From Pyronema omphalodes (lineage: Eukaryota; Ascomycota; Pezizomycetes; Pezizales; Pyronemataceae), in NCBI GenBank assembly GCA_024516155.1, contig JAJJXM010000047.1:186001-250000 (forward strand): 64,000 nt of DNA. The letters are read 5' to 3'. Below the pieces are notes generated by a model. The model saw nothing but the letters and a program-made list of their open reading frames with translations, did not search any database and had not been told where the DNA came from. Every line of letters begins with the position of its first letter. Within the stretch, counting starts at the first letter, position 1. Positions 13,208-38,201 of the stretch are shown here, one piece after another. Position numbers and translations under genes: made by a program.

Positions 13208-13760
13208 TGTTAAAATTATGGTAGAAATGACTTTTGCTTCAAGTGTTGATTTTTGGTTTCACTATCACGGGCACTTGCCACTTGCATCTTCACGTCATGC
13301 TCTCACCATGTATTTTTTCTTTATCTTATCTGATTTCTTTTTCGTTGCTTCTAGATGTTTCTTTCTTACTCGATGTATGTTAGTTTTCTGTTTGCTTCCA
13401 CGGCATTCCATGCCTATGACATCATCAGGTTCCAGTGGTTTCTACCCGCTTCCAGACATATCTAGTAACTTCGATGTAAAGACTCAGAGTCCGGCTTGTC
13501 GTCGACAACCTGAGTCAATCCAAACTATGTATGTAACTATTTTCAGACTTGGCAGGCAGAGGTCTCAGGTATTTATACCCGCTCCCTCTCCCTCCAATGA
13601 TGAACAACACAACAATTCAATCTACAACAAAAACCTCCTCTATTCAAACATCTATAGTGATCTTAAAACCTACTCCTCTCGTCGTCAAAACCCTCTCCCT
13701 GCACAAATACCCTCACAGGTATTGCTCCTCTGCTGTGCACAACCTATCACTCGTTCATTA
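13208..13760 (+). repeat. 5' LTR of element A
   Basis: It begins TGTTAAAATTATGG and ends GTTCATTA, so the termini are TG...TA rather than the commoner TG...CA. A TATTTATA box at 13570-13577 fits an LTR promoter, with the transcript start expected shortly downstream. Confidence 0.93.
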
Positions 13761-13773
13761 GGTTATGAGCCCG
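13761..13773 (+). other. Primer-binding site of element A, initiator tRNA-Met anticodon arm
   Basis: Directly after the 5' LTR the sequence reads GGTTATGAGCCC. Its reverse complement, GGGCTCATAACC, is the anticodon stem-loop of initiator tRNA-Met: CAT anticodon in a loop closed by the G-G-G/C-C-C stem that marks initiators. This is not the usual 3' acceptor end with CCA, so priming by a cleaved tRNA half is implied, as known for Drosophila copia and yeast Ty5. Confidence 0.75.
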
Positions 13774-13836
13774 GCATAGCCAAAAATCAATTCAACCAGA
13801 CGAATTCCTACGCATCCAACGATCGAATAAATCGAC

Positions 13837-16800
13837 ATGTCCTCTTCAAAAGTCACCTACCCGGACCTCCCAAAACCCGAACCACCACACAATTTTCATG
13901 AATCCTTCAGGACCAAGAAATTCAACAAGGACATGAAAATTTCCACTGTTAAACTCGACAACATCGAAGTTCTCACTGGGCACGACAACTACGAAGACTG
14001 GCGCGACCAAATGACGATTATTTTCGACGCCATGCAAGTATCTGAACTGGTTATTGATGGAGCAACTCCAGCAGAAGATGCAGACGATGATGAGTATGAG
14101 GTGTTCAAGGCACTCAAGGCTCAGTGCCTTCTGGTTCTCATACAGGTGCTGTCGAAACCCATCATCAAAGTAGTGGCCAAGAAGCGCGACCCCCACGCCA
14201 TTTGGGTCTACCTAGAGAACACCTATCACCGCAATACAGCCTTCTCTTTTGTTCAGGCAATTATGTCTTTCACCTCGCTTGCCTCATCCTATGATCCTTC
14301 CAAACCAATCACCGAATACCTCGACAGATTTGAAACTGAATGGAATCGTCTCTACAACCTGACCACCGGCGCAAAACCCTCCGACAGTTATCGCAAAGCT
14401 TTCCGTTTGTTCCTGGAAGAAGACAAAGCCAAAAGGGATTTTCTCCTGGGTTTCCTTGTGAACCACCACAGCAATGTTGTGGACAATCTCACAACCAAAG
14501 ATGACCTTTCCTACTCAGATGTAGTTCTCAAACTGCACTCCCTTTCCTCCATGGAAATTCAATCGGTTGCCCTGAAAACCTACCAGTCCAAGGGTCAAGG
14601 GAAAAAGAAGATCGAAAATTCTGGTGGTAATTCAACCAAGGAATGCACCTACTGCAGGAAACACCACCTCGGAAATCCAGTCGGTCATACCTGGAATGAA
14701 TGTCGGAAGCTGAAAGCAAAGAATGAGGAAAAGAAGAAGGAAAAGAAAACTGAACAAGCCAACATTGCAAAAGAAGAAGTCTCTGCACATGCTCTAGCGA
14801 CAACCAAAGTCAGTAACCCCTCCATCACCCATACCTGGATCTTCGACACCGGCGCAAGCTCACATATGACGTCCAATAAAGAATGCTTCGAATCACTTTC
14901 AGCGCATCGAGGAACTGTAAAAATTGGAAATTCCCAATGCCTACAAGTTGAAGGAAAAGGTACTGTTATTTTAAACAGTATACTTCCAAATGGCACAATC
15001 TCTCCAATACGCTTGAATGAAGTGCTCTTTGTACCAGATTTGGACTGTTCATTGTTTTCTTGGCTCTCGGTTCGTGGGAAAGGTTACAACATGATTGATG
15101 ATGGAAAAGGCATTGAACTTCGGAGGAAACATGATGGATCACTCGTTCTGTGTGCCAATTTAGTTGGGATCTTATTTTATATTCCTGAATATATCGACTA
15201 TGCTCACAAGACAACATTCATGCACTGGCATTCCGCCTTTGGACATGTTGCACCCTCGGCTCTTCGACATTCAGAATATTACAAGGATGGACACCTAATT
15301 CCTACGGCTCCAAACAATTTCCATTGTGAACCATGCATTCTTGCCAAATCAACACACTCAGCTCCCGCAGCAGTCATTCACCGAGCAACTAGAAAATTGG
15401 AATTGATTCATTCCGACCTTTCAGGAAAATTTCCGGTACCTTCCTATGCAGGAAATCAATATTACATGACTATTGTTGATGATTTCACTCGGGCCACCTG
15501 GGTATATTTCCTCAAACTCAAGTCAGAAGCTATTCCTATTCTTAAAAACTTTATTGTTATGTGTGAACGGCAATACAATTTAAAAGTTATGAGAATAAGA
15601 ACAGATAATGGCGGGGAATATGTCAACAAAGATCTCGAAAATTTCCTGAAGGAACTCGGAATAATTCATGAACCAACACCACCTTATTCTCATGAATCCA
15701 ATGGAGTTGCTGAACGACTTAATCGCACAATCATGAATATGGTCCGAGCAATGCTTGTTAATCTCGATAAAAGATTATGGCAAGAAGCTGTCCATACTGC
15801 AGTTTATCTCAAGAATAGATTGCCTCACTCAGCGGTCAAGGATCAGACCCCCTATGAGGCATTTCGCGGTGAAAAACCCACGATCCATCATCTTCAGCCC
15901 TTCGGAAGAGAGTGCTACATCCATATACCAGTTGAGAAGCGAGCTCCTGGTAGTAAGCTGCTTCCACGTGCTGAAAAAGGTATCTTCGTTGGATATACCG
16001 ACAGCATACACATTTACAAGGTGTTTGTTCCCTCTAGAAAACATCTTTTTACCTCCCGTGAGGTTATATTCCCTACCTCCAATTCAGAAGGGGATTTTTC
16101 GCCTACTTTGACCAACCATCAGCAGCTCCAGCAATATATCCCGAAATCTACACCCCCTTCCTCTTTAAGTACTCCTCTTTCCATACCACTGAACCCAGAA
16201 GGATTTCCCTCACGGAGACACTGGCAACAATGGTGCTTTCGAAATCCGAAAGAAGCAACAACATGGTTCAACATGGGTGTGCCAAATGTTCATGCAGTAT
16301 GGTATCCTGGACTTAAGAAAGAGGATGGAGATGAATATTTATGGATACAAACTGGACGCAACTTTACTCCTCATCCTGAGCATAATTTCATTAATCCAAT
16401 CGATGAAGAATCTACAACATCATTACCATCTTCACCTATAATTAAATCTGAACAGCCCGATGATGTGACGCCCAACAACTCACAGAGGTTTTCACCAATG
16501 GATCTTGATACACCATATGGCTCACAGCTTGCACCCACGGATGTTCAACCTTCAACTTCTCCTCCACAAGCTCAACCTATCATTCAGCAGCCTGTTCAAC
16601 AACAAACACGTTTTGGACGCATTATCAAACCCCCTATTCGTTATGGATTTGATCTACCTGCACCACCAGGAAAATTCCCTGAACCGGCACCAATTCCAAA
16701 TGATAACCATGGAGAAGACGATGAAGATACTATCCTTGTGGCAACAGCTCTTACATCTGCCTCTGAAATCGAACATGAGTTCCCCAGAACTGTTAAGGAA

Positions 16801-18318
16801 GCCATGTCTCGCCATGATGCAGATAAATGGGTCGAAGCAATGGAAGATGAACTGGATTCCCTCAAAAGGAATGATACTTGGGAAGTTGTTGACAAACCTA
16901 CCAACAGAAGGATAGTCAATTGCATGTGGATTTTTCGAATAAAATACAACTCTGATGGAAGCCTCGATCGATACAAGGCAAGACTTGTTGCACGCGGTGA
17001 CTCTCAAGTTGCTGGCACAGATTATGATGAGTTATTCGCCCCTGTTGTACGATTCGACTCCCTGCGACTCCTACTGGCAATTTCAGCATCTGAGAAATGG
17101 AGGCCTCGGCAACTAGATGTTAAAACAGCATTTCTCTATGGTCACCTCAAAGAAGAAATTTATATGCACCTTCCTGAACGGCGGAAAATTGACGGAAAAG
17201 TATGCAAATTAAAACGGTGTCTCTACGGCCTGAAGCAATCTCCCAGGGAGTGGTATGCGAGGCTTACCAACTACCTCCTTCCCTACGGATTTGCTATCGC
17301 AAATTTCGACCCATGTGTTTTGATTCACAATAGTGGTAAACTCTTTATAGCCATCTATGTGGATGACATTACGATTTTTGGGCCTAGCAATGATCTCACT
17401 GAAAGGATCATCTCAGCTTTGAAGACAGAATTCGAAGTTAAAGATCTGGGTGTCCTTCATTGGCTTCTAGGAATAAAAATCGAATTCACGGAACAGGCTA
17501 TTACTCTTTCCCAGGAAACCTACATCGACAAAGTCCTCGAACGCTTCGGTATGAAGGATTGTAACCCTGTCTCAACTCCTCTCGATCCAAATGTACAACT
17601 TCGAACCGGACTACCTGAAGAACGGATAAACAACATCTCCCTCTACCAGCAAATAATCGGCTCTCTGATGTACGCAGTTACCGGGACAAGACCTGATATC
17701 GCCTATGCAGTTACACACCTCTCACAGTTCAATTCATTCCCAACCAAGGTACATCTGTCGGCTGCTAAAAGAGTCCTGAGATATCTCAAAGGAACAAGAA
17801 ATCTTAAACTCACCTATCAATATGGAAAATCCCTCTACCTCGAAGGATTTTGTGATGCATCTTATGGTAATTGCCTGGATACTCGAAGGAGCTTTTGGGG
17901 ATACCTGTTTCAACTTGGAGAAGCAACCATAAGTTGGCGGTCTCGAAGACAACGCTCTGTTGCCACCTCAACAACCGAAGCTGAATATATGGCCCTCTCT
18001 ATGACTTCGAAACACTATCTCTGGACAACTAGAGCTCTTGCTGAACTCCTGCATCACGATATCCCAGCTGCGATTCGTAGTGATAATTCAAGTGCTATTG
18101 ACATTGCACAAAATCACAAACTGAACGACCGGAGCAAACATGTGGATATGCATTACCATTCCATTCGAGAACTCATCGAAACCGGTCAAGTCACAGTCAT
18201 CCACATTGATGGTAGAAACAATTTGGCAGATATATGTACCAAGGCAGTTACACAGGGAGTTAGCGAGCATCTCCGTTCTCGAATCTTTGGGACAGTGACA
18301 AGTGAGAAGGGGTGTTAA
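13837..18318 (+). CDS. Gag-Pol polyprotein of copia element A
   Basis: An uninterrupted 1493-residue polyprotein from ATG 13837. In order: a Gag region with a UBN2-type N-terminus (HDNYEDWRDQMTIIFDAM), then a zinc knuckle with a stretched spacing (CTYC...H...C). Next come an aspartic protease (WIFDTGASSHMT), a GAG-pre-integrase HHCC motif (HWHSAFGH...CEPC) and an integrase core (LIHSDLSG, RTDNGGEYV, SNGVAERLN). The reverse transcriptase has KARLVARGDSQ, LDVKTAFLYG, LYGLKQSPREWY and the YVDD box. RNase H follows (CDASYGNC, TTEAEYMA, RSDNSSAI, KHVDMHYH). Gag and Pol are one frame, so the Gag:Pol ratio is not set by a frameshift here. The last sense codon and the TAA stop lie inside the first six bases of the 3' LTR. 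Confidence 0.96.
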   Translation: MSSSKVTYPDLPKPEPPHNFHESFRTKKFNKDMKISTVKLDNIEVLTGHDNYEDWRDQMTIIFDAMQVSELVIDGATPAEDADDDEYEVFKALKAQCLLVLIQVLSKPIIKVVAKKRDPHAIWVYLENTYHRNTAFSFVQAIMSFTSLASSYDPSKPITEYLDRFETEWNRLYNLTTGAKPSDSYRKAFRLFLEEDKAKRDFLLGFLVNHHSNVVDNLTTKDDLSYSDVVLKLHSLSSMEIQSVALKTYQSKGQGKKKIENSGGNSTKECTYCRKHHLGNPVGHTWNECRKLKAKNEEKKKEKKTEQANIAKEEVSAHALATTKVSNPSITHTWIFDTGASSHMTSNKECFESLSAHRGTVKIGNSQCLQVEGKGTVILNSILPNGTISPIRLNEVLFVPDLDCSLFSWLSVRGKGYNMIDDGKGIELRRKHDGSLVLCANLVGILFYIPEYIDYAHKTTFMHWHSAFGHVAPSALRHSEYYKDGHLIPTAPNNFHCEPCILAKSTHSAPAAVIHRATRKLELIHSDLSGKFPVPSYAGNQYYMTIVDDFTRATWVYFLKLKSEAIPILKNFIVMCERQYNLKVMRIRTDNGGEYVNKDLENFLKELGIIHEPTPPYSHESNGVAERLNRTIMNMVRAMLVNLDKRLWQEAVHTAVYLKNRLPHSAVKDQTPYEAFRGEKPTIHHLQPFGRECYIHIPVEKRAPGSKLLPRAEKGIFVGYTDSIHIYKVFVPSRKHLFTSREVIFPTSNSEGDFSPTLTNHQQLQQYIPKSTPPSSLSTPLSIPLNPEGFPSRRHWQQWCFRNPKEATTWFNMGVPNVHAVWYPGLKKEDGDEYLWIQTGRNFTPHPEHNFINPIDEESTTSLPSSPIIKSEQPDDVTPNNSQRFSPMDLDTPYGSQLAPTDVQPSTSPPQAQPIIQQPVQQQTRFGRIIKPPIRYGFDLPAPPGKFPEPAPIPNDNHGEDDEDTILVATALTSASEIEHEFPRTVKEAMSRHDADKWVEAMEDELDSLKRNDTWEVVDKPTNRRIVNCMWIFRIKYNSDGSLDRYKARLVARGDSQVAGTDYDELFAPVVRFDSLRLLLAISASEKWRPRQLDVKTAFLYGHLKEEIYMHLPERRKIDGKVCKLKRCLYGLKQSPREWYARLTNYLLPYGFAIANFDPCVLIHNSGKLFIAIYVDDITIFGPSNDLTERIISALKTEFEVKDLGVLHWLLGIKIEFTEQAITLSQETYIDKVLERFGMKDCNPVSTPLDPNVQLRTGLPEERINNISLYQQIIGSLMYAVTGTRPDIAYAVTHLSQFNSFPTKVHLSAAKRVLRYLKGTRNLKLTYQYGKSLYLEGFCDASYGNCLDTRRSFWGYLFQLGEATISWRSRRQRSVATSTTEAEYMALSMTSKHYLWTTRALAELLHHDIPAAIRSDNSSAIDIAQNHKLNDRSKHVDMHYHSIRELIETGQVTVIHIDGRNNLADICTKAVTQGVSEHLRSRIFGTVTSEKGC

Positions 18319-18865
18319 AATTATGGTAGAAATGACTTTTGCTTCAAGTGTTGATTTTTGGTTTCACTATCACGGGCACTTGCCACTTGCATCTTCACGT
18401 CATGCTCTCACCATGTATTTTTTCTTTATCTTATCTGATTTCTTTTTCGTTGCTTCTAGATGTTTCTTTCTTACTCGATGTATGTTAGTTTTCTGTTTGC
18501 TTCCACGGCATTCCATGCCTATGACATCATCAGGTTCCAGTGGTTTCTACCCGCTTCCAGACATATCTAGTAACTTCGATGTAAAGACTCAGAGTCCGGC
18601 TTGTCGTCGACAACCTGAGTCAATCCAAACTATGTATGTAACTATTTTCAGACTTGGCAGGCAGAGGTCTCAGGTATTTATACCCGCTCCCTCTCCCTCC
18701 AACGATGAACAACACAACAATTCAATCTACAACAAAAACCTCCTCTATTCAAACATCTATAGTGATCTTAAAACCTACTCCTCTCGTCGTCAAAACCCTC
18801 TCCCTGCACAAATACCCTCACAGGTATTGCTCCTCTGCTGTGCACAACCTATCACTCGTTCATTA
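18313..18865 (+). repeat. 3' LTR of element A
   Basis: A 553-bp copy matching the 5' LTR with one base difference (18703). A purine-rich tract, AGTGAGAAGGGG, lies immediately upstream and is the likely plus-strand primer. The target-site duplication ATTTC follows at 18866-18870. Confidence 0.93.
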
Positions 18866-18916
18866 ATTTCGAGTGATGAATCCTGACCGCGCCGCTCGGC
18901 CGCTTTGGAAAGACAG

Positions 18917-19090
18917 TGTTGAAGTGCGCCTAAGGCCCTAGTGCTTAGGTGGAGGTGGACCACTCTTTATGTATAGGCACTCGCTTGCCCGTCTATGTCT
19001 GACTCTTCACGCTCGTTAATACATCCGGTTCCCACCTCCACTTTTCTTCTTCTCGTGCCTGTGTGAGACCTTCGACAGAGACCTTCGACA
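18917..19090 (+). repeat. 5' LTR of element B
   Basis: 174 bp, starting TGTTGAAG and ending CTTCGACA, which form an 8-bp near-perfect terminal inverted repeat. It contains a TTTATGTATAGG stretch as a possible TATA element. The end carries a tandem duplication of AGACCTTCGACAG. Confidence 0.93.
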
Positions 19091-19102
19091 GGTTATGAGC
19101 CC
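19091..19102 (+). other. Primer-binding site of element B, initiator tRNA-Met anticodon arm
   Basis: GGTTATGAGCCC abuts the LTR with no spacer. The same 12 bases follow the LTR of element A, although the two elements differ almost everywhere else. The sequence is complementary to the initiator tRNA-Met anticodon stem-loop, again implying a half-tRNA primer. Confidence 0.75.
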
Positions 19103-19194
19103 TTGCGAATCCGCTACTCTTACCGTTATTCCTTATTAGTTATAACTCATATTATTTCTTCACTTTCCCACTAATTTTAATTACTCTATCCGAC

Positions 19195-20109
19195 ATGTCC
19201 GACGAGGTCCAAGAACCCACTGCTTTGAAGTGCCCAATCCTTACGGTCGCCAATTATGCGCAGTGGAAAGACCCGATCCATTTTATCCTGGCCGGAAAGA
19301 GCGCCTGGAATATTGTGAACGGAAAGGAGACGCGCCCTGCTGGCGGCACCAGCCAACAAGCACAGAGGGATCTCCAATACTTCGATGAGAGGGCAGCCAG
19401 AGCTACCCAGATCATCTTTGACCAGTGCGACATTACCTGCCGCAGAGTCATCACCGGACTCGATAATCCACGGGAGATGTGGCTAAAACTTGAAGCCAGG
19501 TTTGATAACTCGAAAACTAATTCTGGACGAAGGAACCTCTGGATCAAGTTCTGGAGATCCAAGCCTAACCCCGGCCAGTCCATGTCAAAATGGATAACCG
19601 ACCTCCTCAATATTCAGGCTCCCCTCACCGGTACAGTGTTAGATATCAGCGACACTGCGCTGGTCAACTATGTTATTGCGAATCTCCCCGACTCCTACGG
19701 AGTCACGAAGCACGAGCTCGCCAAACTTGACAATATTGCAGTTGACGAACTTCAGAAAATCCTGCATGACCACGAGCATATGTGGGAAGCAACTCTAGGA
19801 TCCCCGAAAGGCGAAGCGCATGCTACGACGACTAAGTGGTGCGACCACTGTAAACGATCTAGCCATAACACCAAGGAATGTTACGCAACTCGCAACAACA
19901 ACAAGCGCGCAGCGTCCTCGAGCGCCGGACCGTCCAGGCCTACTAAAACTTCGAAAAAGGAGGATGTTCAGTGCCACTACTGTACGAGGAAAGGGCACCT
20001 TGCGACAGAGTGCAAGCTCCGGTCTTCAGCCACAGCTATACGCGAGCGCTACAAGCTTCGCTCCAGCGCGAAAATTGCCGAGTTAGACAACACAGATCTC
20101 GGTATTTGA
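19195..20109 (+). CDS. Gag protein of copia element B
   Basis: 304 residues from ATG 19195 to TGA 20107-20109. The N-terminal half is the copia Gag fold (VANYAQWKDPIHFIL, MWLKLEARFDNS, LVNYVIANLPDSYG). Two canonical CCHC zinc knuckles follow: CDHCKRSSHNTKEC and CHYCTRKGHLATEC, each CX2CX4HX4C. The frame stays open after the TGA directly into the protease, so Gag would be the termination product and Gag-Pol a readthrough product if the stop is functional. The stop context is ATT-TGA-CTC; a C right after UGA with CU next is the kind of context known to be leaky in fungi. Confidence 0.88.
   Translation: MSDEVQEPTALKCPILTVANYAQWKDPIHFILAGKSAWNIVNGKETRPAGGTSQQAQRDLQYFDERAARATQIIFDQCDITCRRVITGLDNPREMWLKLEARFDNSKTNSGRRNLWIKFWRSKPNPGQSMSKWITDLLNIQAPLTGTVLDISDTALVNYVIANLPDSYGVTKHELAKLDNIAVDELQKILHDHEHMWEATLGSPKGEAHATTTKWCDHCKRSSHNTKECYATRNNNKRAASSSAGPSRPTKTSKKEDVQCHYCTRKGHLATECKLRSSATAIRERYKLRSSAKIAELDNTDLGI
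20107..20109 (+). other. In-frame TGA between Gag and Pol of element B
   Basis: The frame on both sides is the same as the Gag frame, and protease begins about 25 codons later (WVLDSGATHHFC). Either this is programmed readthrough or a recent nonsense mutation. The identical LTRs argue against long decay but cannot exclude one mutation. Confidence 0.6.
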
Positions 20110-23100
20110 CTCGGGAACTCTAGCACCTCCCTAACAGCGCAAGTCTTGATCGCAACAGACTCGTCCGCTGAGACACACACATGGGTGCTCGACTCTGGTG
20201 CAACGCACCACTTTTGTAATGATAAATCTGCTTTTCTTATTGATTCTTTAGCTACTTGCAAGTCCATCAACATTCGCTTAGGTGACAATAGTACAGTCAC
20301 GACCAACACCTACGGAAAAATCATACTCAATAATCTTTTTCAAATTTCAGCACTATACGTTCCCACGTTTCGACTCTCCCTTTTCTCCCTGCCTCTCTTT
20401 GATAAAAGGGGGTGGAATATTACTATGTCGGACGGTACTTGTACTGTGAAAGACAAGACCTCCAAGACAATCATTGTCGCTCGGATGAAGGACAATCTTT
20501 ACAGATGGACAGCAGAGGCCATTAAGGAGGACCACGACGCCCTGATAACCACTCGTTCTGGTGCAGGCGTTGACATTAACTCCATTCCCTCCTCAACCCG
20601 AACAACGGTATCATCGAATAAACGAACAAGTGCAGAGGTTGACTTTACGCGTCCTAGTGACAAAGACCTCCGAACGGCACATAGACAGTCTTTCCGCCTT
20701 GAACCTACAAGCAATTTCGAGATGTGGCACAGGAGACTGGCCCACCTAAATACCGAGTCCTTGTCTAAGATCATTAATTCGACTGATAAAACTACAACAT
20801 CAGATCATCTCCAGTCCTGCACAACGTGCATACAGGCCAAAAACCGACAGTCTTTTATCCGATTACCAACCGAACGTGCGAGCAAGCCTTTCGAACTTGT
20901 CCACTCGGATGTCTGCGGCCCGATGTCGACTCCGTCGATCAGTCAACGACGTTATTATATCATCTATATTGATGACTTTAGTCGTTTCGCCAAAGTTTAC
21001 TTTCTAAAATCAAAATCCACAGATGCCGTATTACCTGTATTCCAGGAATACAAAGCGTGGATCGAGTCTCAAGGACATAAGATTCTTCGGTTCAGATGTG
21101 ATAATGGCACAGGGGAGTTTAACAATCAACAGTTCCGTTCTTTCCTGGCGAAAAACGGTATCTCGTTCGAACCCTCACCACCCTTCACACAACATAAAAA
21201 CGGAACTGCCGAGAGATTCATTCAGACAATCAACGGCAAAGCACGTTCCATGCTACTAGACGCCCAAGTTCCTCATCGCTTCTGGGCTGAGGCTGTCAAC
21301 ACGGCGGTCTACCTACACTCGATATCTCCGACTAGGACGCTCAAAGGCTGGCTAAGTCCTCATGAGGCCCTGTTTCACAGGCCGCCTCAGCTGCTACACC
21401 TTCGAAGATTCGGTTGCACGGTCTTCAAGCATATACCGAAGGAGCAGAGGACAGACAAGAACTGGAGCGCACGCGCGTCACACAGTATGATGGTTGGATA
21501 CACAGAGTCGTCAAAGATTTGGCGCATCTATGACTTCAACTCACGTTCTGTCGTGCGCGCTTCCAACGTCGTCTTCTTAGAGGAAAATAATGCCTTCGAT
21601 TCTGAAGGACGTCCAAATACATCAGAGGAAATCATCAAGGCAATATCTGACTGTTTCCCTGATATCGTTGAAGGGGGTGATGAGGATGCGTCAGCGCTCA
21701 TATCACATGAGATAGACGCCCTCATTCAGAGTATGTACAAATGATCACCCCAACTTTTTCCGCGTCACCGCTGTAGGACCTTTTCACGGCCACACGGTAT
21801 AGTCTTTATCACATTATCTTCGAGTCGGATCAGCCTTCATGCTGCCTCACTCTAACTATACATTGACAATTCCGTCTTGAATGTCACTGTCCCGATCAAG
21901 CCTTCATGCTGTCCGGACTACTCTTGCTAGGCGAATATGCCACACACTGATTATCATCGGTTCAAGGATACTTATCCTGAAATTTTATCCGATTAACACT
22001 CCGCTGTGCATCTCCTCACGAGATTCTGCCACGGAATCCCTGTCTACTGTTCTTTCCCTGTTTCTCAAATTTCTCTCTCTACTTCTCAGATATTCACTTC
22101 TTCGAACTAACATCCTAATTCTCAGATGCCTCTAATGCTATGAATTCACTGTCCCTACGCGACGAGCGACTGAAGGCCAACAGACTAAACAAGTCCCGCT
22201 ACGAAGACATCGATATTGACGACGCCCTGGCCTCGGCCTTTCTCGCCAAAGCAACTATAGACGATCCCGACGAGGCCATAGGTCCTGATCTACTTGACGG
22301 CGACCCGACCTCTTACACCGCAGCAATGAAGAGCGCCGACCGGGACAACTGGAGAACTGCGATGCAAGAAGAATGGAACTCTTTACTGATAAACGAAACC
22401 TTCCAGGCTTTCAAATCAAATGACAATGCAGAACCTCTCCGACCAATGTCACCGCCTGATGCATTCGACAATCAAACATCCTACAGCGGCATCACTGTTC
22501 CTTTTGGATGCAAGCCTTTGAAGTGCCGATGGATTTACAAAACCAAACGCAACATTGACGGCAGCACAAAGTTCAAGGCCCGACTGGTTATAAAGGGTTA
22601 TGAACAAGTTCCGGGAATTGATTATGATGAGACATATGCACCTGTCTCCAAGCTAAGTACTCTACGTTACCTGCTAAGTTTATCTGCAACCAGGGGGTGG
22701 TCAGTCGACCAAATGGATGTCGTCACAGCCTTCCTCAATCCAGCCATTGACAACGACAGGACTTTCATGTCCATGCCTCCCGGTATCGAATGGCTCGATA
22801 AACGCCTATCAAAAACCTCGACGGTTCGCCTGCTGAAAGCCCTGTACGGCCTAAAACAGGCACCCCGATTATGGTGGGCCCAGATTAATGACTTCCTCAT
22901 GAAGCAAGGTTTCCGACAAGCACACGCCGACTCCAACCTCTACCTCATGAAGGACGCATTTCTGCTCTTATATGTCGACGATATCTTGATCTTCAATCTC
23001 ACGAAACAGAGGATGGGCGACAACATCAAGAAGGCCCTCAGTGCTCGCTTCAAAATGACAGATCTCGGAAGAGCGACTCGTTTTCTCGGCCTCGAACTCG

Positions 23101-23969
23101 AATATTTGCCTGACGGAAGTATTGCCATCTCGCAGAGGGATTATATTGAGGGGGTGATTGCCAGATACGGTCTTCTTGAGGCCGCACCCACCTCTTCCCC
23201 GATGGACATTCATGTTGATCTTGAGAATACTGACTGCGAGGACAAGACCACTGATGAACAGCAAAAACGTCTGTATCTATCAATGGTCGGATCACTGATG
23301 TACGCAGCAATCGGAACTCGTCCTGACATCGCCTTCGCCGTGACTGCCCTCAGCCGATACAATCAGTCGCCTCTAGCAATGCACATGACCGCTGCCAAAA
23401 GGGTCATCCGATACTTGAAAGGTACGAAAAATTTGTCGATTATCTACAAGCGTAACCACGACATACCGCAGGACTGTTTGCGACTCTTCTCCGACAGCGA
23501 CTGGGCCGGCAGTACGGCCGATCGGAAAAGCGTCGGGGGGTGCGTAGTCCTTGCGCCAGGAGCGGACGGGCCAATTCACTGGAGCTCAAAGAAGCAGTCC
23601 GTCATCGCCCTTTCCACTCTTGAAGCCGAGTACATTGCATGCAGCAATGCGACCCGTGAAGCGATCTGGTTCCGCCTATTGATGGACGACACCGAAGCCT
23701 GGGATAACAAAGTGCCGACCTCGGTCCGTTGCGACAACATGGGAGCACTTCGCCTCCTCCAGACCGGCGTCATCAAGGCGAAAACAAAACACATCGATGT
23801 GAAGTTTCACCACTCGATCGACGAAGCTAGAAAGGGAACGGTATCGTTCGAATACATTGCGTCCAAAGAGAATGTCGCAGATATCCTCACTAAACCGTTG
23901 CCTGGACCAACACACGCGTTGGCCGTGAAACTCTTAAGGATGGAAACGTTGAATGGTAATAATGATTAA
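20110..23969 (+). CDS. Pol region of copia element B (protease-integrase / reverse transcriptase-RNase H), spliced
   Basis: Two coding blocks, 20110-21730 and 22126-23969. The first holds the protease (LDSGATHHFCND), the HHCC domain (MWHRRLAHLN...CTTC) and the integrase D,D,E residues (LVHSDVCGPM, RCDNGTGEF, NGTAERFIQ). The second holds reverse transcriptase (KARLVIKGYEQVPGIDYDE, MDVVTAFLNP, LYGLKQAPRLWW, YVDD) and RNase H (SDSDWAGSTADRKS, STLEAEYIA, RCDNMGALRL, KHIDVKFHH). The intervening 395 nt are intron-like. Splicing restores one frame, and with readthrough of the TGA the full Gag-Pol would be 1459 residues, close to the 1493 of element A. Without splicing, translation stops four codons into the intron, giving a protease-integrase product that lacks reverse transcriptase. 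Confidence 0.88.
21731..22125 (+). other. Candidate spliceosomal intron inside retrotransposon element B
   Basis: The donor is GTATGT (after CAG A), the branch site ACTAAC lies near 22104-22109, a pyrimidine-rich run precedes it, and the acceptor is CTCAG at 22121-22125. Donor and branch are close to the best fungal consensus. The length is 395 nt (not a multiple of 3), and removal joins codon phase 1 to phase 1 as AAT, fusing DALIQ to NASNAM in frame. The unspliced frame hits TGA at 21742-21744. Confidence 0.75.
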
Positions 23970-24219
23970 TGGGTTTGATTTGAATGAATAAGTGTGTGTT
24001 GTGATTGAAGTATGGCTGCTGATTGCTGATTATGATGATGATTGAATTGTGTTGTTTTTTTTTACTTGGGTTGTTCTTCTTATGGGTTTCTTCACTTCTT
24101 CTTTTATGGGTAATTGGGTATTTTCTTTTTCTATGGTATTGTTCTTGTTTTCTGTTATGATGGATTGTTATTTCTTCTTATTATTATGTTTGTAGCACCC
24201 GTCCTTAGACGAGGGGGTG

Positions 24220-24393
24220 TGTTGAAGTGCGCCTAAGGCCCTAGTGCTTAGGTGGAGGTGGACCACTCTTTATGTATAGGCACTCGCTTGCCCGTCTATG
24301 TCTGACTCTTCACGCTCGTTAATACATCCGGTTCCCACCTCCACTTTTCTTCTTCTCGTGCCTGTGTGAGACCTTCGACAGAGACCTTCGACA
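24220..24393 (+). repeat. 3' LTR of element B
   Basis: A 174-bp copy identical by eye to the 5' LTR. The polypurine tract GAGGGGGTG at 24211-24219 precedes it. A 250-bp non-coding stretch rich in T and G separates it from the pol stop at 23969. Confidence 0.93.
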
Positions 24394-24486
24394 GACAGAG
24401 ACAGAAAAGAGAAAAAAAACGCAAAAAATAATGAGTAATCATAGTACTGGGAATTGAAAATGGTCTGTGTATACTTTCATACCCAG

Positions 24487-26111: not shown

Positions 26112-28081
26112 TCAAGTGATGAGCCTGCAAGTAAGTTGTAACGGGTTCTATATAAAGCGATTGATTGTGTAAGCATCCAGCATCCAGCATCCAGCATCCA
26201 GCATCCAGCATCCAGTATCCAATATACAATAACCAGAAACATATTTCTTTTTCTTGAGGTATATTGCGCCGTGTGGTAACTTTCAGTACTGTAAACTACT
26301 CTAGACTATGTACCCCAAACCTTCAAAATAGGTAATGTAGCCATCGTAATCATCATCATCGTAATCATCATCATCATCATCGGCTTATATAATCCCCATT
26401 AAAAAGTTTTAGATGAAACCCCCATATATTCCATCTTCAATTATACCGTCTCCGTATGGATTATGAATCTTATGACATATCATCTAATCTCAATGTCAGA
26501 AAGAATATAAGAATACAAGAATACAAGAATAGAAGAATGATGATTTCTAATTTCTAATTTCTAATTTTAAAAACACCTTCACATAATGATAAGATAAGGC
26601 TACATAATGCTATAAGCAAAGTAACAAGAGTTTTTTTGAGACATCTGACAAACCTCAAGATCCGGCTACCGCTAAAGTATTGATTTGATTGATATTGATA
26701 TAGATCATGACAGATTTATTATCGTATGAAGAAAGTAGCAGTGGAATGGTGATGTTTGTATACTTGGATATGGTATGGATGATAAGAGATGAGATTATGA
26801 TAGATAAGAGATAAGATGTAAGAGATAGGGAATAAGAAACAAAACACATGACAAAAGACATGACAAAACACAACCTGACAACATGACAAAACACATGACA
26901 AAACACAACCTGACAATATGACAAAACACATGACAAAACACAACATGACAAAACACAAGAGACAACACATGACAAAACACATGACAAAACACACAAAACA
27001 CATGACAAAACACATAACAAACCATACAACACATAACAAACCATACAACACATAACAAACCATACAACACATGATAAAACACCACTACACAAGATGACAA
27101 AACACCACTACACAAGATGACAAAACACCACTACACAAGATACACAAGATACAGTCATACCCTCACAATCACAATCACCAATCACCAATTACATCAATCC
27201 TAAGTCCTAAATCCAAACCTACATACTGTAAGATAATCCAAGTTAACCCGGCCAGCATATAAATAAGCCAATATAAAAAATCACGTACTCGGTACTTAGT
27301 GACTCTGAATATCATTTGAATCTGAATAATCCAAATATCAGAGGGGACAAGAAAAGCCAAGCCTTGCCGAGACAGTTCAAGCCATGCCAAGACAAACCAA
27401 GCCAAGACAAGACAAGCCTTGCCAAGTCAGGCAAACCTAAGAAAACAACGTAAGGTAAGAAAAAAGTAAGATCTGACACGAGGACGAGAATAAACCAATC
27501 CCATGAGTAATGGATGAAATGATGAAATGATGAAATGATGGAATGATGGAATGATGGAATGATGAACTACCTACATTACTTTGATATGTACAGAATGGTT
27601 TAATTTTATCGAACCTTGGGTATTGAATATACTTTTGTGATTGGTTTAGTATGTATAATGCAGCACCCAAGGGCTAGGATAGAGGGGGGGGGGGGGTTAG
27701 TGATGATCATTACGAATCACCATGGTGTTGTAAACATCCAATATAAAGATATACAAAACCTAAGCAAAGAACCCAACAACCCAACAACCCTTCTATTTTT
27801 TTTTTTGTTCTTTCAGAAATGGTATCATAATCATAATCATAATCACAACCAGTGATTCATGGTTCATGGTCCATCATCCATCATCTTTATCCCATCATCA
27901 TCATCCATCATCAATATCCATCCTCCATCCTCCATCATCATCATCAACATCATCCAATATTAACTTTCCCAACTCCAAGCCCTATTCCCATTTCCAATCA
28001 CCATACCCAGTCCGCAACATAAATATCAATATATACATAGAAGCCACAGTAATCGGAATGGAAGTATGTATATATATATAT
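26112..28081. other. Gene-free repeat-rich spacer
   Basis: About 2 kb with no gene. It contains GCATCCA heptamers (six units, about 26173-26215), ATC-type trinucleotides near 26345-26385, and a long degenerate array based on ACATGACAAAACAC at about 26840-27140. GATGAAAT/GATGGAAT octamers lie near 27505-27565, and poly-G and CATCAT tracts near 27685 and 27885-27955. Open frames across these arrays are artefacts of the repeats. Confidence 0.7.
26840..27140. repeat. Minisatellite based on ACATGACAAAACAC
   Basis: Head-to-tail, partly degenerate copies of a ~14-bp A/C-rich unit plus a 20-bp higher-order variant (CATAACAAACCATACAACA repeated three times, then ACAAGATGACAAAACACCAC). Confidence 0.75.
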
Positions 28082-28638
28082 CGGAAATTATGCAGGATGC
28101 CCCCGAAAAAACACGAAATTTGCAATATACCCCCGTCTATGCAGGATGCCCCTCGCTTAGGTAGAGCACACCCGCCCATATTGAATACAGCGCCTACAGC
28201 GGGCTACAGATTTTTCACGTGTGTTTTTTTTTTCTTCGCTTGCAGGTGAAGATTTTGATTCCACTTCTCGATATTATCGTCAACAACGACAACATGGAGC
28301 GCACCAATTCGCTGACAACCAGCATCGATCCTAACGCCGCTGACCCGATCTCTCGACATGCACTACTCCTTGGCGATGATTTTCCCTCGTTTTCCGAGTT
28401 TAAACTGGCTATTCACAAATGGGCCGTAGACATGCTGTTTGGCATTCGCTTTGCAAAGTCAGAGGCGCAGAAGTGGATTCAAAATTTTTATCTGCAAGTA
28501 AGGAAAAAAAACATGCGTGAGAAATTTGGCGCCCGGCGCTGAAGGCGGGTGTTCACTACCTAAGCGAGGGGCATCCTGCATAGACGGGGGTATATTGCAA
28601 ATTTCGTGTTTTTTCGGGGGCATCCTGCATAATTTCCG
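28082..28638. mobile_element. Miniature MULE-like element with 95-bp terminal inverted repeats
   Basis: 557 bp flanked by 95-bp, near-perfect inverted repeats at 28082-28176 and 28544-28638. They start CGGAAATTATGCAGGATGC and contain an internal direct repeat TATGCAGGATGCCCC. The flanks are TATATATAT on both sides, compatible with a 9-bp target duplication, although the TA-repeat target blurs this. Between the arms lies one exon resembling a MuDR-type transposase N-terminus, so the element is probably an internal-deletion derivative of a larger MULE. Confidence 0.75.
28294..28542 (+). pseudogene. Remnant exon of a MULE-type transposase
   Basis: 82 codons from ATG 28294. The stretch DDFPSFSEFKLAIHKWAVD followed by FGIRFAKSEAQKW resembles the conserved N-terminal FAR1/MULE domain ('SFEEFKxAIxxWA...FxxRFxKSD'). 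A plausible acceptor (TTCGCTTGCAG, 28235-28245) lies upstream and a plausible donor (CAA|GTAAGG) inside, so this was one exon of a longer gene. The DDE catalytic core is absent, hence it is non-functional as a transposase. Confidence 0.6.
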
Positions 28639-28874
28639 TATATATATATATATAGCTGTTTGAAAATACCCCGTAGAGCTATGTTGCTGGGTATGAAGAT
28701 ATGGTATACTAAGTCTAGAAAGTTTAGAAATGCTAGAAACGCTAGAAACGCTGGAAAACTACAGGAAGCTTCGGTTACGTCTACTAGCTACTAACTGCTG
28801 GGTGCTGGGTGCTAGGTACTGCGAAGATATCTCGTATTTATTTTATTTTTATATCTATAAACCAATCCCCTTAA

Positions 28875-29560
28875 GAAAAGCGAAAGCGAAAAAGAAAAAT
28901 CCAAAAGCAAAAGCAAAACCAAAACCAAAACCAAAACCAAAACCAAAACCAAAACCAAAACCAAAACCAAAAGCGAAAGCAAAACCAAAACCAAAACCAA
29001 AATCCAAAATCCAAAATCCAAAATCCAAAAGCAAAATCGAAAGCAAAAGCAAAAGCAAAAGCAAAAGCAAAAGCAAAGCAAAAGCAAAAGCAAAAGCAAA
29101 AGCAAAAGCAAAAGCAAAAGCAAAAGCAAAAGCAAAAGCAAAAGCAAAAGCAAAAGCAAAAGCAAAAGCAAAAGCAAAAGCAAAAGCAAAAGCAAAAGCA
29201 AAAGCAAAAGCAAAAGCAAAAGCAAAAGCAAAAGCAAAAGCAAAAGCAAAAGCAAAAGCAAAAGCAAAAGCAAAAGCAAAAGCAAAAGCAAAAGCAAAAG
29301 CAAAAGCAAAAGCAAAAGCAAAAGCAAAAGCAAAAGCAAAAGCAAAAGCAAAAGCAAAAGCAAAAGCAAAAGCAAAAGCAAAAGCAAAAGCAAAAGCAAA
29401 AGCAAAAGCAAAAGCAAAAGCAAAAGCAAAAGCAAAAGCAAAATCCAAAAACTAAAAACTAAAAACCAACGCAAAATCAAAAGCAAAAATCAAAAATCAA
29501 AAATCAAAAATCAAAAACCCAACGCAAAAGCAAAAGCAAAAGAGAAAAATAAATATATAT
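28875..29560. repeat. Hexanucleotide satellite (AAAACC)n / (AAAAGC)n
   Basis: A compound array: about ten AAAACC units near 28915-28975, AAAATCC-like variants near 29000-29030, then a nearly perfect AAAAGC tract of about 61 units from about 29076 to 29443, with degenerate tails to 29560. It reads as Lys-Ala or Leu repeats in translation but has no start context or codon signal of a gene. Confidence 0.9.
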
Positions 29561-29609
29561 CAAAAAAAACAAGTAATAAGTTCATGATATATCACTAGAC
29601 TTCGATAGC

Positions 29610-31176
29610 TACGGCAACGCATCTGTACATGGAGGGACAAAAAACTTTTGCACTTTTAATTTGCATTTGCACGTTTAATTTTTCACATTTCATCCGTTGC
29701 AACGCAACAACACAGCCACACCGCTGGTTAACTCACAGATTCTCACGCTTGCAGAACACCTCCTAAATGTGGACTCGGCGAATCATATATGTATTAATAT
29801 GCCGCTGAATATAGAAATGAAAACTCTCATACAACATGCTATCATTGCCAGGAAGGGATAAACTATGAGAGCAATGCGAATGACGATTGGATAATAATCA
29901 CATGTCACGGTAGCTTTCTTTTAGAGTTCTAACTTTCAATTCTGAAGAATATAGGTTTAGGGGTTGGAATAGCTAGATAGCGTCTGTACATAGAAGTTTC
30001 ATCATGAAGTGACTAGGTGAACATATATATGGAGGAGGAATGAGAGAGGAGGTGCGGTGAGAGAGGAGATGTGGGCAAGAAGAGTCAAGTGAGTAGGTAA
30101 AACTAAGGAGAGATATATGCAGGGAGATGGGTGAGGAGATCTGAGAGACGGTCGCTGAAGGTGGGAGACTGGATCTCCGCGATGTATCAACACCACTGCA
30201 TATGTCATGATCATTGAGATGAACGTGATGGTGGGATTTAAATGGAATCAAAACACAATATAGCACAGCACAAATGGGCGGGTTTGGAAGTCATCTCAGG
30301 CTTAATAGTATGATCAATGTGCCTGCGTTATGAACATTGTGACCAAATTGGGTGTATAAGTCAGCCGTTATCATTATTATGCATTCTATACAATTCCATA
30401 AAGTTATAGGTTTCATGCAAATTCCAGTTCCGAAGGACAGCTCATAGTAATAAGGAAACAAAGATGATTCCACCATAATTTCAACCTCAACAGAATCATT
30501 ATCCCCGTTCACACAGAAGAATCCTGATCCACCTCCATACTATCCTGATCATCCTTGACGTCACTGTGTGAATCGTCTATTTCTTCCCCATCACAATCAC
30601 CCGAGAGATCAATAGCCGATAGTGTGTCCAGCCTCTTATGATTCAACGTTGCAAGAGGCCTGTTGAAGTCAGGCAGACGTGGAGAATCACCGTCTAGCAT
30701 TGTCTCCAATGACCTCTTTGTCCCTTTTGCCCTGCGCAATACATTCTTAACTCGCCTCTCTCTCCTCTCCTCTCCTCACCTCTCCTCTGTTATCATCTGC
30801 TCTCCCGTGCTCTCCCCAGCTCTCCTCTATTCTTCTCTACTCTCCTCTGCTCTCCTCTGCTCTCCTCCGCTCTCTTCTGCTCTACTCTGCTCTACTCTGC
30901 TCTACTCTGTAGCAGCGGTGCGCGGCGGGTAGCGTCGCCGCTGTGTAAGTAGCCTACATACAACTGATGTATACGCGCTTGCGATTTTGTGATGCGCGCC
31001 TGTCACTGTTTTAGTCAGCGGTGTGGCTGTGTCGTTGTGGCGACAATCTATTTTGGTAGGTTGGTACTCCTCCTCTGTTGCACTGCTGCGTTGCAACGGA
31101 TGAAAAGTGAAAAAGGCAAATGCAAATTAAAAATGCAAAGTTTTTTTGTCCCTCCATGTACAGATGCGTTGCCGTA
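29610..31176. mobile_element. Unclassified DNA element with ~100-bp imperfect terminal inverted repeats
   Basis: The termini TACGGCAACGCATCTGTACA and onward match in inverted orientation for about 100 bp (29610-29708 against 31084-31176, with a few small indels). A further inverted match, ACACAGCCACACCGCTG, occurs at 29711-29727 and 31016-31032. A 6-bp direct repeat, GATAGC, flanks the element (29604-29609 and 31177-31182); alternatively a TA duplication inside the ends would make it Tc1/mariner-like. Inside are low-complexity TCTCC tracts (30760-30910) and an acidic open frame on the minus strand. Superfamily not determined. Confidence 0.65.
30509..30739 (-). pseudogene. Acidic open-frame remnant inside the long-TIR element
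   Basis: About 76 codons ending at TGA near 30509, with composition unlike the surrounding repeats. A basic start (RRAKGTKRSLETML) is followed by an Asp/Glu/Ser-rich tail (DGEEIDDSHSDVKDDQDSMEVD). There is no ATG at its beginning and a TCTCC microsatellite runs into it, so it may be the 3' end of a broken element-encoded gene. I recognise no family. Confidence 0.3.
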
Positions 31177-31481
31177 GATAGCAGCAATCCCACTTCTGTT
31201 TTTTTTTTGTTTTGCTATTTTTTTTTTATTTTTTTTAATTTCTTCTTACAAAACTAAACAGCAACGCTAACACCAGTATCACAAGTAATACCAGCAATAC
31301 CAGCACCACCAGCAATCATAACAGTACCACCAACAGCACCACCAATACCAATAACCCCCAGTATCAACATCCATATTTTTTTTTCTCTCTTCTTCTCTTA
31401 AATACACTCAATTACTCATTATCTCCATTCATACAATCCCTTATTTCATGTCATTTTCACATATGATACAGATTCCGATAT

Positions 31482-31585
31482 CAATTACTCAATTACTCAA
31501 TTACTCAATTACTCAATTACTCAATTACTCAATTACTCAATTACTCAATTACTCAATTACTCAATTACTCAATTACTCAATTACT
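31482..31585. repeat. Octamer minisatellite (CAATTACT)n
   Basis: About 13 head-to-tail copies of CAATTACT, followed by degenerate variants (CTTCAATTACT, CCGTCAATTACT) to about 31645. Confidence 0.9.
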
Positions 31586-31654
31586 CCTTCAATTACTCTG
31601 TTAATCACTCCGTCAATTACTCCTTCAATCACTCCGTCAATTACCCATTATCTC

Positions 31655-31764
31655 CACACACTCAACACACTCAACACACTCAACACACTCAACACACTCA
31701 ACACACTCAACACACTCAACACACTCAACACACTCAACACACTCAACACACTCAACACACTCAA
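31655..31764. repeat. Nonamer minisatellite (CACACTCAA)n
   Basis: About 12 perfect copies of a 9-bp unit starting shortly after the octamer array; the last unit is altered to CAATACAAT. Confidence 0.9.
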
Positions 31765-32915
31765 TACAATCACCAGCTCACCAGCTCACCAGATCTATCA
31801 ATCGCTACCTTATTATGCCCTTACAATAATCTTCCTACTGGGAAAAAAAAATCTTATATTCCCATGTTGTATCTATATGGAAACTTGATTAATTACTCCG
31901 TCAATTGGGTATATGTATATATATAAATTTTCCCCTACTCTTATACTATCCTACTATCCTACTCCCACAGTACACAGAGCCACAAAACAGCAGCAGCAGC
32001 TATAGCCTATAGCTAATATTCCATTCCTCGTTACATATAAGGCCTAATTACAACAGTTATACTTATCATCAAAATCCCCAGAAGGAAAAAACCAGAAAAA
32101 ATTAAAACTTCGAAAAAAAAAAAAAAAAAACGAAGAAAAAAATTAAAAAGTAAAATATATCAACTCATATCCATAAAAAATCCGAAAGAAAAGAAAAGAT
32201 TATGTTACAATTATAAAAAAGGTAAGTTAAACCCCCGTTAGTTTTGTTGTGCTGTGCTTCTTGCGGCTTTGCTTCGTGCTGCCAATCTTTGCTCTGCTGT
32301 GCTTTTCTCATTGCAAACTCGCACCTCGCACCTCGCCCGCACACCGCGCTCAACTCAACTCAACTCAACTCAGGGAAACAACATCTTCATTAAACATAAT
32401 ATCAACCACCGTATACATGATCATTTTTAACGCGCATCCCCCATCTCCCATCTCCATCCCACATCCCATCCCACATCTCCCGGCCGGTCTAGAAAAAAAA
32501 AAAAAAAACGCACAAGAAGCACAACAAGAAAAACAACACAGGAATCGAAAAAAAAACTCTCAAACCCAACGCCATTGTGGATCATACAAAAAAAAAAACA
32601 ACAGACAACCTCAAGGAAAGAAAAAAATTAATTCCTCTCAGTCATCAATCAATCAGAAAAAAGAAACCCCGAAAGAAAAAAAAACCAAACCAAACCCGAA
32701 ACCAGCAACCCCCTCCCGAGAAAAAAAAAAGGCAGTTTGAGTTAATAAAAATATATCATATACAACAAGTTACAGTTGAATATAAGAAGAAGACGAAAGT
32801 TTAGAAAGTGGTAAGTTGGGGGAGGTATTGCTCAAAAAAGAAGAAAAAAAAACAGCCGTGATAAGAAACAAAAAAACAAAAAAAGCATCGCCAAATAAAA
32901 AAAAAAAAACTAGAA

Positions 32916-34747
32916 TTAATCGCTTCGTTTATCATTGAGGGTGAATCCACTTGCAATCTTTGGAGCAATAGGGCTTCTCGGAGTGGAAGTAGATGAGGAG
33001 TGGTTTCGGATCTCGACAACTTTCTTGTCTGACCAACGAATCTTGTAAAGACCTCCACGCCAGGTAATAGGTCCGGGTATTAATGACCTAACCCAAACGT
33101 ATGATGCCAAACTCTCACGACCAACCCATTGGAAAAGCCACTCGAGTAGTGTCCTTCCCTTTCTGTCGGCGATGAAAGGAGGTGAGTTTTCGTCAACAAC
33201 TGTACTCCGGTATTGGTGAATAAAGTTGTAGATGTGTCTATCGAAAGCAGCCCAAACAAACATGGAACAAGCCCAGAAAGTCCAGAAGCTGCACCAAGAA
33301 GAACCGATATGTTTGCTCAGGAAAGGGAGGGTAGTAGCGGCGTAAGCTCCAACCATTGACATCGAAATCGACTCCGTTAAGCTCTCTGTTAATGACGCAA
33401 CTAGCTCAGTGTATTTCCTTACACTAATCCAGCGGATTCTTCTGGCGGTGTAATCCTGAATCGACATGTTTGAAAGCGGCTGGAAAACAATGTCTGGTGC
33501 CATTCCATGTTTTCCCCACTTCCGTTTACCCGTCAACTCTTCCTCCAAGGGGATTTTCCAGAGCTTAGTGGAGATCATGTGGTCCTCGCAAATATAGTCG
33601 GCAAAGTAGTCAAGTCCGGTAAACGCGCTTCCGTCTTGAGTTACCTCTTCAAGATGGCTACGACGGAATAGCTCCGACTTTCCAACAACACAGGGTCCTA
33701 ACCGAAGGGTATTGATTGCCGAGTAGAATTTTGCATGAGAGCTTGACAAGAAGTTTTCCTCGAAACGGCCTCCTCCGACGGAAATCCATCGGGACATCCA
33801 GCTCTTCTCGGTAACGGGGGATCCCTTGGTCAAAAGTGGGCTGCTGCTAACACCGGCGGATGAGGGGGGACGAGAAAGGTGTGCCTGGCGAGAGGTAATA
33901 TCGTAGGCGATAGGGAGGTGGTGCACAAGCTTGTATCCCGGTCTGCCATTGGTTCCCTCGAGCAACTCAACAGCGCGACGGAGGGTTCCAGGAGGCACCC
34001 AAACGTTACAGTCGAGAATCCAAACAATGTCGCTGCTAGCTTCACGGTAGGCCTTGCTGAGGTTGCGAATCTTGGGGTTAGGACCAACATCTTCCTCGCT
34101 GATTACAAGCTTCGCGTTGACGTTGGGGTATTGCTCAAGCGTGGACTTGATCACCGGGATCGAGGAATCGGTAGGCGACGCTACGCAGAAAACAAGCTCA
34201 TACTTGTTTCTAGGGTAGTCAAGGAGACAGGTAGAGGCCAAGCAAATATCAAGATTCGGGTCGCATCCTTTAATCGGTCGTAGAATCGTAACGGCGGGTA
34301 GACTGTCATCGGGGACAACTGAGGGTGGGGGTGGTTTTGCGTAGGTTCGTCGTCTAGAGACTGGTTGTCAGCGAGCTCGTCCGATGTTTGAAAAAAAAAA
34401 AAGTTTACACGTCTCGAAAGATTTGGATTGAACACGTACATCCAGCTGTAGCCCACCACAATCACAAACCATATCAGACAATACCAGATGAGAGCGACAT
34501 AGGATAGAAAGTGTGTAAAGTCCCATTCGGTGGCGAGCTGGTTGGCGTCGCTACCGGGCTTTGGCAGAGGGAAGGCTGATGCAAAAGCTGAGGAGGTCAT
34601 TCGGATAAACTGGTTGATGTTATTCGAGTGAGCAGGCGCGAGAAAGTAAGCGGCGGCGACGACAACAAGTAGAAATGAGAGCGCAGTCTCGCATTCGTAT
34701 TTCCGACTTCTCGACGTGAGGGTGGAAAGGAGGAGAAAGGAGGTCAT
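32916..34747 (-). CDS. gcs: Ceramide glucosyltransferase (glucosylceramide synthase, GT21)
   Basis: Two exons, 34747-34440 and 34353-32916, encode 581 residues. The 86-nt intron has donor GTACGT, branch GCTGAC and acceptor CTAG. The enzyme moves glucose from UDP-glucose to ceramide in Golgi/ER membranes. Visible family marks are LPAVTILRPIKGCDPNL (residues ~121-137), SSDIVWILDCNVW (~209-221, D1/D2 region), YICED (~356-360) and RRIRW (407-411), which corresponds to the (Q/R)XXRW motif. Hydrophobic segments lie at the N-terminus (~21-37 and ~75-100) and after residue ~430, as in other GCS proteins. A second ATG at 34600 would give 532 residues. The earlier ATG is used because it is the first in frame, but neither has a strong start context. 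A Ser-rich insertion at ~260-285 is variable in fungi. Confidence 0.93.
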
Positions 34748-36639: not shown

Positions 36640-36712
36640 TTCTCTCTCTATCTCTATCTCTATCTCTATCTCTATCTCTATCTCTATCTCTATCTCTTTC
36701 TCTATCTTCCTC
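36640..36712. repeat. (TATCTC)n microsatellite
   Basis: Roughly ten copies of the hexamer TATCTC flanked by TCTCTCTC and TTTCTCTATC variants. Confidence 0.85.
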
Positions 36713-37247
36713 TCATTTTTTCTCCTCTCTATGATAAATAGTATACCCAAAAGAAAAAAAAAAAGAAAAAAAAAAAAAAAGAAAGAAAAGAAAAAAACCA
36801 CTACTACTGCTCGTGCCTACGTTTAGACCCCCCCCCCCCCCTCTTAAGCTCGACATGTGACAAGCGAAATACGAAATACGGATGATGCTGTGGCTTGGCT
36901 TAGCTTCAGGAGGAGGCTAGTAAAAAGTTAAGAGGCGAACTACAGAGAGGGGGGGGGGGGGGGACTATGAATTGGAAGCGAACTACAGAGAGGTGAGGTA
37001 TGATGATGATGATGATCAGGTGAGAGGAGAGGGGGAGGGGGGCTAAGAAGGAAGTGGAATTGGCAGGTCTTGTGATATGGTACATGTGTTGAGGAGGATA
37101 TGGATATGGAGATATGGAGATATGGATATATGGAGATGTGGATATATGGAGTGCTGTGTATGCGAAATTTTGGAAAAAAAAGTATATGGTGGCTAAGAAA
37201 GTATAGTTGAAACATACAGGTACAGGTACATATACATAGTTTCTGAT

Positions 37248-37335
37248 TCATCGTATCATCGTATCATCGTATCATCGTATCATCGTATCATCGTATCATC
37301 GTATCATCGTATCATCGTATCATCGTGTCATCGTG
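37248..37335. repeat. Octamer minisatellite (TCATCGTA)n
   Basis: About nine perfect TCATCGTA units followed by two TCATCGTG variants. Confidence 0.85.

Positions 37336-38170: not shown

Positions 38171-38201
<31 letters not shown>

Follow-up and report, generated by a model that had tools for sequence, protein, structure and literature searches.

Elements that are copied through RNA should lose introns. Bianca of plants and Tca2 of Candida albicans belong to Ty1/copia, and a half-tRNA primer binding site is a feature of a subgroup of Ty1/copia. Ogre is a plant Ty3/gypsy element of the Tat lineage, in which an intron lies between the protease and the RT-RH-INT block. The Ogre intron separates two coding blocks and is removed from some transcripts only, and its removal is needed for the whole polyprotein (PMC6317226). 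Bianca has two ORFs with a separating region of 172 bp on average, and in the sections of the same source that deal with two-ORF groups, where the first ORF is GAG or GAG-PROT, splicing is reported for Ogre only (PMC6317226). In the Ty1/copia elements copia of Drosophila, BARE1 of barley and EVADE of Arabidopsis, splicing leads to two message types (PMC3735527, PMC12786077); in these elements Gag is obtained by splicing Pol out or by silencing it. In Tca2 an in-frame UGA separates gag and pol, and the account of this border names no intron (PMC2194720). Cer1 of Caenorhabditis elegans, a Ty3/gypsy element (PMC3315495), has a genomic RNA that must leave the nucleus unspliced, its splice sites being in use, and splicing makes CERV, a product described as needed for export of the genomic RNA (PMC10309623).

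Here we describe element B, a fungal Ty1/copia element whose intron-split Pol would follow the logic known from Ogre, but at another place in the element: the predicted intron lies after the integrase and before RT, and is 207–413 nt long across families. Unlike Ogre, element B has in addition an in-frame UGA after Gag, a feature that it shares with the fungal element Tca2; unlike the gap in Bianca, that in element B is preceded by the integrase; and an unspliced genomic RNA is what it has in common with Cer1. The proposed use of splicing is opposite to that in copia, BARE1 and EVADE, in that splicing would be needed for RT and the unspliced RNA would give the shorter product. Among the matches listed in our literature searches, whose scope did not extend to Repbase, no Ty1/copia element was described with an intron between integrase and RT, and the term intron has 0 occurrences in the main text of a survey of fungal Copia elements (PMC5445492). 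We consider it probable that a spliceosomal intron splits Pol of element B, with the unspliced RNA acting as genome and as message for Gag and Gag-PR-IN, and the spliced RNA as the sole source of RT-RNase H.

Structure of element B and the predicted intron

The window, by which we mean the whole 64,000-nt stretch of Pyronema omphalodes DNA that was analysed, is part of contig C175, and the genome searched comprises 60.8 Mb in 232 contigs. Its Rtt109-like protein has 95% identity to a metagenome protein; the best matches from named sources are Wilcoxina mikolae (60%) and Trichophaea hybrida (57%), with Tricharina and Sphaerosporella next, and these named fungi are cup fungi of the Pyronemataceae, in keeping with a host from that family. 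Element B has the following features, and it adjoins a second Ty1/copia element, element A, given last.

18917–24393: element B, Ty1/copia element
18912–18916 (5' copy) and 24394–24398 (3' copy), no strand: target-site duplication (TSD) GACAG
18917–19090, plus strand: 5' LTR, 174 nt, in direct repeat with the 3' LTR at 100% identity, ends fixed by the TSD
19091–19102, plus strand: primer binding site GGTTATGAGCCC, complementary to the tRNA-Met(CAT) anticodon arm, half-tRNA priming type
19195–20106, plus strand: Gag, 304 aa, Retrotran_gag_2 (Pfam)
20107–20109, plus strand: in-frame UGA between Gag and Pol, followed by CUC
20110–21730, plus strand: Pol exon 1 with Pol_BBD, GAG-pre-integrase, integrase and SH3 domain (ORF, Pfam)
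21731–22125, plus strand: predicted spliceosomal intron, phase 1, 395 nt, donor GTATGT, branch ACTAAC, acceptor CTCAG
22126–23969, plus strand: Pol exon 2, RT-RNase H up to the stop codon, RVT_2 by Pfam
24220–24393, plus strand: 3' LTR, 174 nt
13208–18612: element A, adjoining Ty1/copia element with identical 300-nt terminal repeats and a single 1495-aa frame

Pfam recognized Pol_BBD, gag_pre-integrs, rve and SH3_retrovirus upstream of the segment 21731–22125 and RVT_2 downstream of it. We take Pol_BBD, by its name, to be protease-like, and RNase H is presumed from its position, as Pfam gave no RNase H match. The resulting order of Gag, protease-like domain, integrase and RT-RNase H is that of Ty1/copia (Pseudoviridae), as are the paired LTRs starting with TG and the 5-bp TSD, the latter found in all six copies checked. 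Over 12 nt, the primer binding site matches the tRNA-Met(CAT) anticodon arm; the anticodon-arm pattern had 13 matches in the genome, two of which were retrieved, and both were identified as tRNA-Met(CAT) by ARAGORN. Elsewhere in the window, at 26839–40212, short units are repeated in tandem in many arrays, for example AAAAGC ×109 at 28876–29542 and TACAGAA ×29 at 39285–39487, and long frames overlap there on the two strands.

The segment begins with GTATGT at 21731, contains ACTAAC at 22106–22111, whose branch A (22110) precedes the segment's end by 15 nt, and terminates with TTCTCAG at 22125. From stop to stop, the open integrase frame spans 20110–21744 and the open RT frame 22119–23969. An earlier note on this DNA had read the segment as a spliceosomal intron; the splice signals, the length and the phase-1 joining of the two coding blocks that it listed were all found again, as was the identity of the LTRs. 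Its statement that translation through the retained segment halts after four codons was borne out by the sequence AGT ATG TAC AAA TGA of the unspliced integrase frame. Within the segment, AGCCTTCATGCTG occurs twice, at 21832–21844 and 21899–21911 of the window, 67 nt apart, and family II (see below) has close copies of both. Three candidate host introns were set aside, being motif matches only.

Copies of element B in the genome

The genome was searched with the junction region, the RT start and the segment alone, with at least 40 matches for each. From the junction-region and RT-start searches we cut out 60 loci, 23 of which were repeats, leaving 37 distinct places. The whole segment was present in 32 of these, and in the other five the match began inside the segment, with other sequence abutting; none of the 37 loci was a copy wholly without it. 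The abutting breakpoints lie at segment positions 316, 92, 279, 262 and 298 (L035, L046, L047, L048 and L057, respectively). In L046 the abutting sequence inside the intron is a reversed LTR of the element B family, and L047 and L057 have about 1.5 kb of upstream sequence in common that resembles another repeat.

In the 32 aligned copies the segment was 381–399 nt long, its lengths falling into all three residue classes modulo 3 (13, 8 and 11 copies), and its flanks measured 431 nt at the integrase end in 29 copies and 435 nt at the RT start in 27. The integrase frame met a stop within the segment in every one of them, at codon 4 in 30 and at codon 23 in two. Genome-wide pattern searches with up to three mismatches, which more decayed copies would escape, showed GTATGTAC kept in 52 of 52 donor matches, and CTAAC with AG in 46 of 47 branch/acceptor matches; the sole exception, on C203, is a copy carrying stop codons. 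Among 33 distinct introns (31 of the element B family and two of family II), 178 of 395 sites were variable, and GTATGTAC, AACTAACAT and the last AG were invariant. With the variable sites placed at random, the chance that all 13 named sites (GTATGT, CTAAC and AG) are invariant is 3.5e-4. The donor, branch and acceptor are thus kept while the interior drifts, as in a GT-AG intron, and the genome-wide searches support the interpretation of the segment as spliceosomal; it is presumably spliced in vivo, perhaps only in part and under regulation.

The coding sequences on both sides were compared as well. The 616-aa RT frame was without a stop in 24 of 38 full-length B-type RT matches. Variable sites at the integrase end favoured third codon positions (20, 13 and 44 at first, second and third positions), and those at the RT start did not clearly do so (38, 23 and 41).

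The in-frame UGA between Gag and Pol, which went unmentioned in the earlier account of the segment, is likewise kept across copies and families. TGACTC follows Gag in all 21 aligned sequences (19 of the element B family and two of family II), and TGA CTC was also found at the gag-pol border in stretches of family III (one) and family IV (two), where the frames upstream of it are Gag by Pfam. This conservation is consistent with a bypass of the UGA that would yield Gag-Pol. For Tca2, the flanks of the gag UGA are described as insufficient for readthrough in yeast (PMC2194720).

Intron-bearing families and intronless element A

With the N-terminal 290 residues of RT as query, 118 protein matches were obtained in the genome. 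They fell into the element B family, groups of about 88% (II), 62% (III), 53% (IV) and 42% identity, and fragments. Thirteen stretches upstream of RT were fetched from families II–IV; one of them, L069, was dropped, as integrase or RT was not recognizable there, and 12 were readable. All 12 contained, in the linker between integrase and RT, a GT-AG segment whose removal in phase 1 joins the open frames. The predicted intron was 390–398 nt long in family II (3/3 stretches), 395–413 nt in family III (5/5, including L068, where the integrase frame is decayed and the splice sites are intact) and 207–228 nt in family IV (4/4, with the donor GTAAGC picked by consensus out of three phase-1 GTs in the open stretch). 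The unspliced frame stopped in each of the 12, at codon 4 in five and at codons 39–54 in seven. Two of the findings that the earlier note had named as speaking against an intron, sister copies lacking the segment and sister copies with an open linker, were both absent from the copies analysed.

The introns of the element B family and family II align at 75–87%, and there was no meaningful alignment among those of B, III and IV; words common to introns of different families are few and mostly pyrimidine-rich. Family IV introns (L070–L073) have an A-rich tract of variable length ahead of the pyrimidine tract. Because sequence variation in the linker precludes residue-level proof, the assignment of the families III and IV introns to the same site is based on domain order, phase and the RT tree, which together favour one old intron for all four families. 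Members of the 42% group, element A among them, have one intronless frame each, reaching 1495 aa; with neither a Gag stop nor an intron, element A is a natural control for element B.

Relatives in other genomes

Two protein searches, with the best 120 matches taken from each, supplied 153 external RT proteins. A midpoint-rooted FastTree tree was built from 141 of these and six local sequences, 12 having been dropped for too little core, and the clade holding B and IV had a support of 0.943. A stretch of over 150 residues preceded the RT core in 3 of 59 scorable external proteins of the B/IV clade versus 27 of 65 outside it (Fisher P 1.5e-6; 10 and 7 truncated proteins, respectively, left out), an indirect, protein-level contrast that depends on ORF calls and length-limited candidates. 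Since 38 of the 65 outside proteins also start near the RT core (median tail 54.5 residues, versus 42 inside the clade), the effect is in part one of ORF calling, or the split extends beyond the clade. Among the matches listed, most close relatives from the protein database consist of an RT frame alone, with names such as hypothetical or uncharacterized protein. No relative with DNA in viral and prokaryote-genome contigs was confirmed.

In three external proteins, P0018, P0015 and P0251, a single frame covers both the integrase-side and the RT domains; P0251 was not long enough to enter the tree. When the two family-IV exons were searched separately, exon 1 matched P0015 up to residue 152 and exon 2 from residue 162, and in P0251 the two matches met at residue 364; both proteins thus show the exon-1 and exon-2 blocks as neighbours. 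The exon-2 match in P0018 starts only at residue 446, further along the protein. The three proteins resemble a lineage from which the intron was lost, and the existence of a related lineage seemingly without it indicates that the intron is not indispensable.

Copying of unspliced RNA

Six copies (that in the window and those on C171, C157, C24, C186 and C172) were checked at both ends. They had six different 5-bp TSDs, and the intron was present in all six. An intron in each of six copies with a TSD of its own indicates independent insertions, each from unspliced RNA. These six insertions are direct evidence that supports what the earlier note had deduced, namely that genomic RNA escapes splicing, and they indicate that unspliced RNA has been copied repeatedly. 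Patterns for the unspliced donor junction had 52, 16 and 10 matches for B/II, III and IV, 78 in total, and those for the exon–exon junction had 0, 0 and 0, all with up to three mismatches; at this threshold, no spliced copy of B/II, III or IV was found in this assembly.

The interior of the intron was analysed for conserved elements and structure. Three sequences had given a hint of a conserved island (longest invariant run 21, permutation P 0.041), but the set of 33 introns did not bear it out (P 0.11 with a window of 40, 0.38 with one of 20 and 1.0 with one of 12). No regulatory structure was detected in the intron by global folding (z −0.30), and the RNAalifold covariance term was only −0.47. 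Compared with the family-II copy L061, the intron diverged by 24.9%, with four-fold sites at 25% in the integrase and 44% in RT. Compared with another family-II copy, L063, it diverged by 13.1%, whereas four-fold sites reached 25–27%, about double, so that some constraint on the intron is possible; it would be a weak constraint on its interior.

Discussion

In the mechanism that we propose, unspliced RNA would give Gag and, via bypass of the UGA, Gag-PR-IN, and would also be packaged and serve as the template for copying. RT-RNase H would be reached solely by splicing, which would fuse exon 1 with exon 2 in phase 1. Partial splicing would yield two RNA pools, and its incompleteness would also set the level of RT. 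A regulated switch between Pol mRNA and packaged RNA, as the earlier note envisaged, may operate here, and spliced RNA may be excluded from copying.

There is an appreciable chance, if a smaller one than an even chance, of a passive alternative: the intron would be real and spliced, the spliced RNA exported and translated and only the unspliced RNA packaged, so that retention in DNA is passive and has no regulatory role. The absence of a significant island or structure from the intron interior agrees with this, as do the divergence from L061, near the lower of the two four-fold values, and the lineage that seems to have lost the intron; the low divergence from L063 may point instead to constraint. 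A dispensable intron, moreover, should often vanish through copying of spliced RNA, yet spliced junctions were absent against 78 unspliced ones.

It is improbable that splicing has no part and that RT-RNase H is a separate cistron, expressed either by initiation at a start codon of its own or through a subgenomic RNA whose promoter lies within the segment. An ATG does follow the acceptor by 14 nt in this copy and by 8 nt in family IV, and Tca2 is described as having a minor promoter in the gag-pol junction (PMC2194720). In families II and III, however, the first in-frame ATG lies 200 and 137 nt downstream, with none upstream in the open frame, and a separate cistron leaves the near-invariant GTATGTAC, CTAAC and AG and the constant phase 1 unexplained. 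It is very improbable that the segment was inserted late or represents coding sequence in decay, with defective copies moved in trans by intact intronless elements: intronless frames do exist, in element A and its relatives in this genome and in relatives of the B clade outside it, but the lack of intronless B/II, III or IV copies at the threshold used, the RT frame kept open in most full-length matches, the third-position bias at the integrase end (not clear at the RT start) and the occurrence of the feature in four families appear largely to refute it.

Returning to the intron-split Pol, the retention of the intron by four families of one genome despite their copying through RNA implies that the fate of spliced RNA differs from that of unspliced RNA. 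Tentatively, and with some doubt, we suggest that a large fungal Ty1/copia lineage carries two stacked gates, bypass of UGA-CUC and splicing of an old intron; RT would then be made only from RNA no longer capable of serving as genome, and some mechanism would bar spliced RNA from reverse transcription and thereby hold the intron through very many copying cycles. Our results also suggest that ORF-based surveys may mistake elements of this kind for broken ones or for RT fragments. Outside plants and animals, element B provides a system in which to ask how translated RNA stays apart from genomic RNA.
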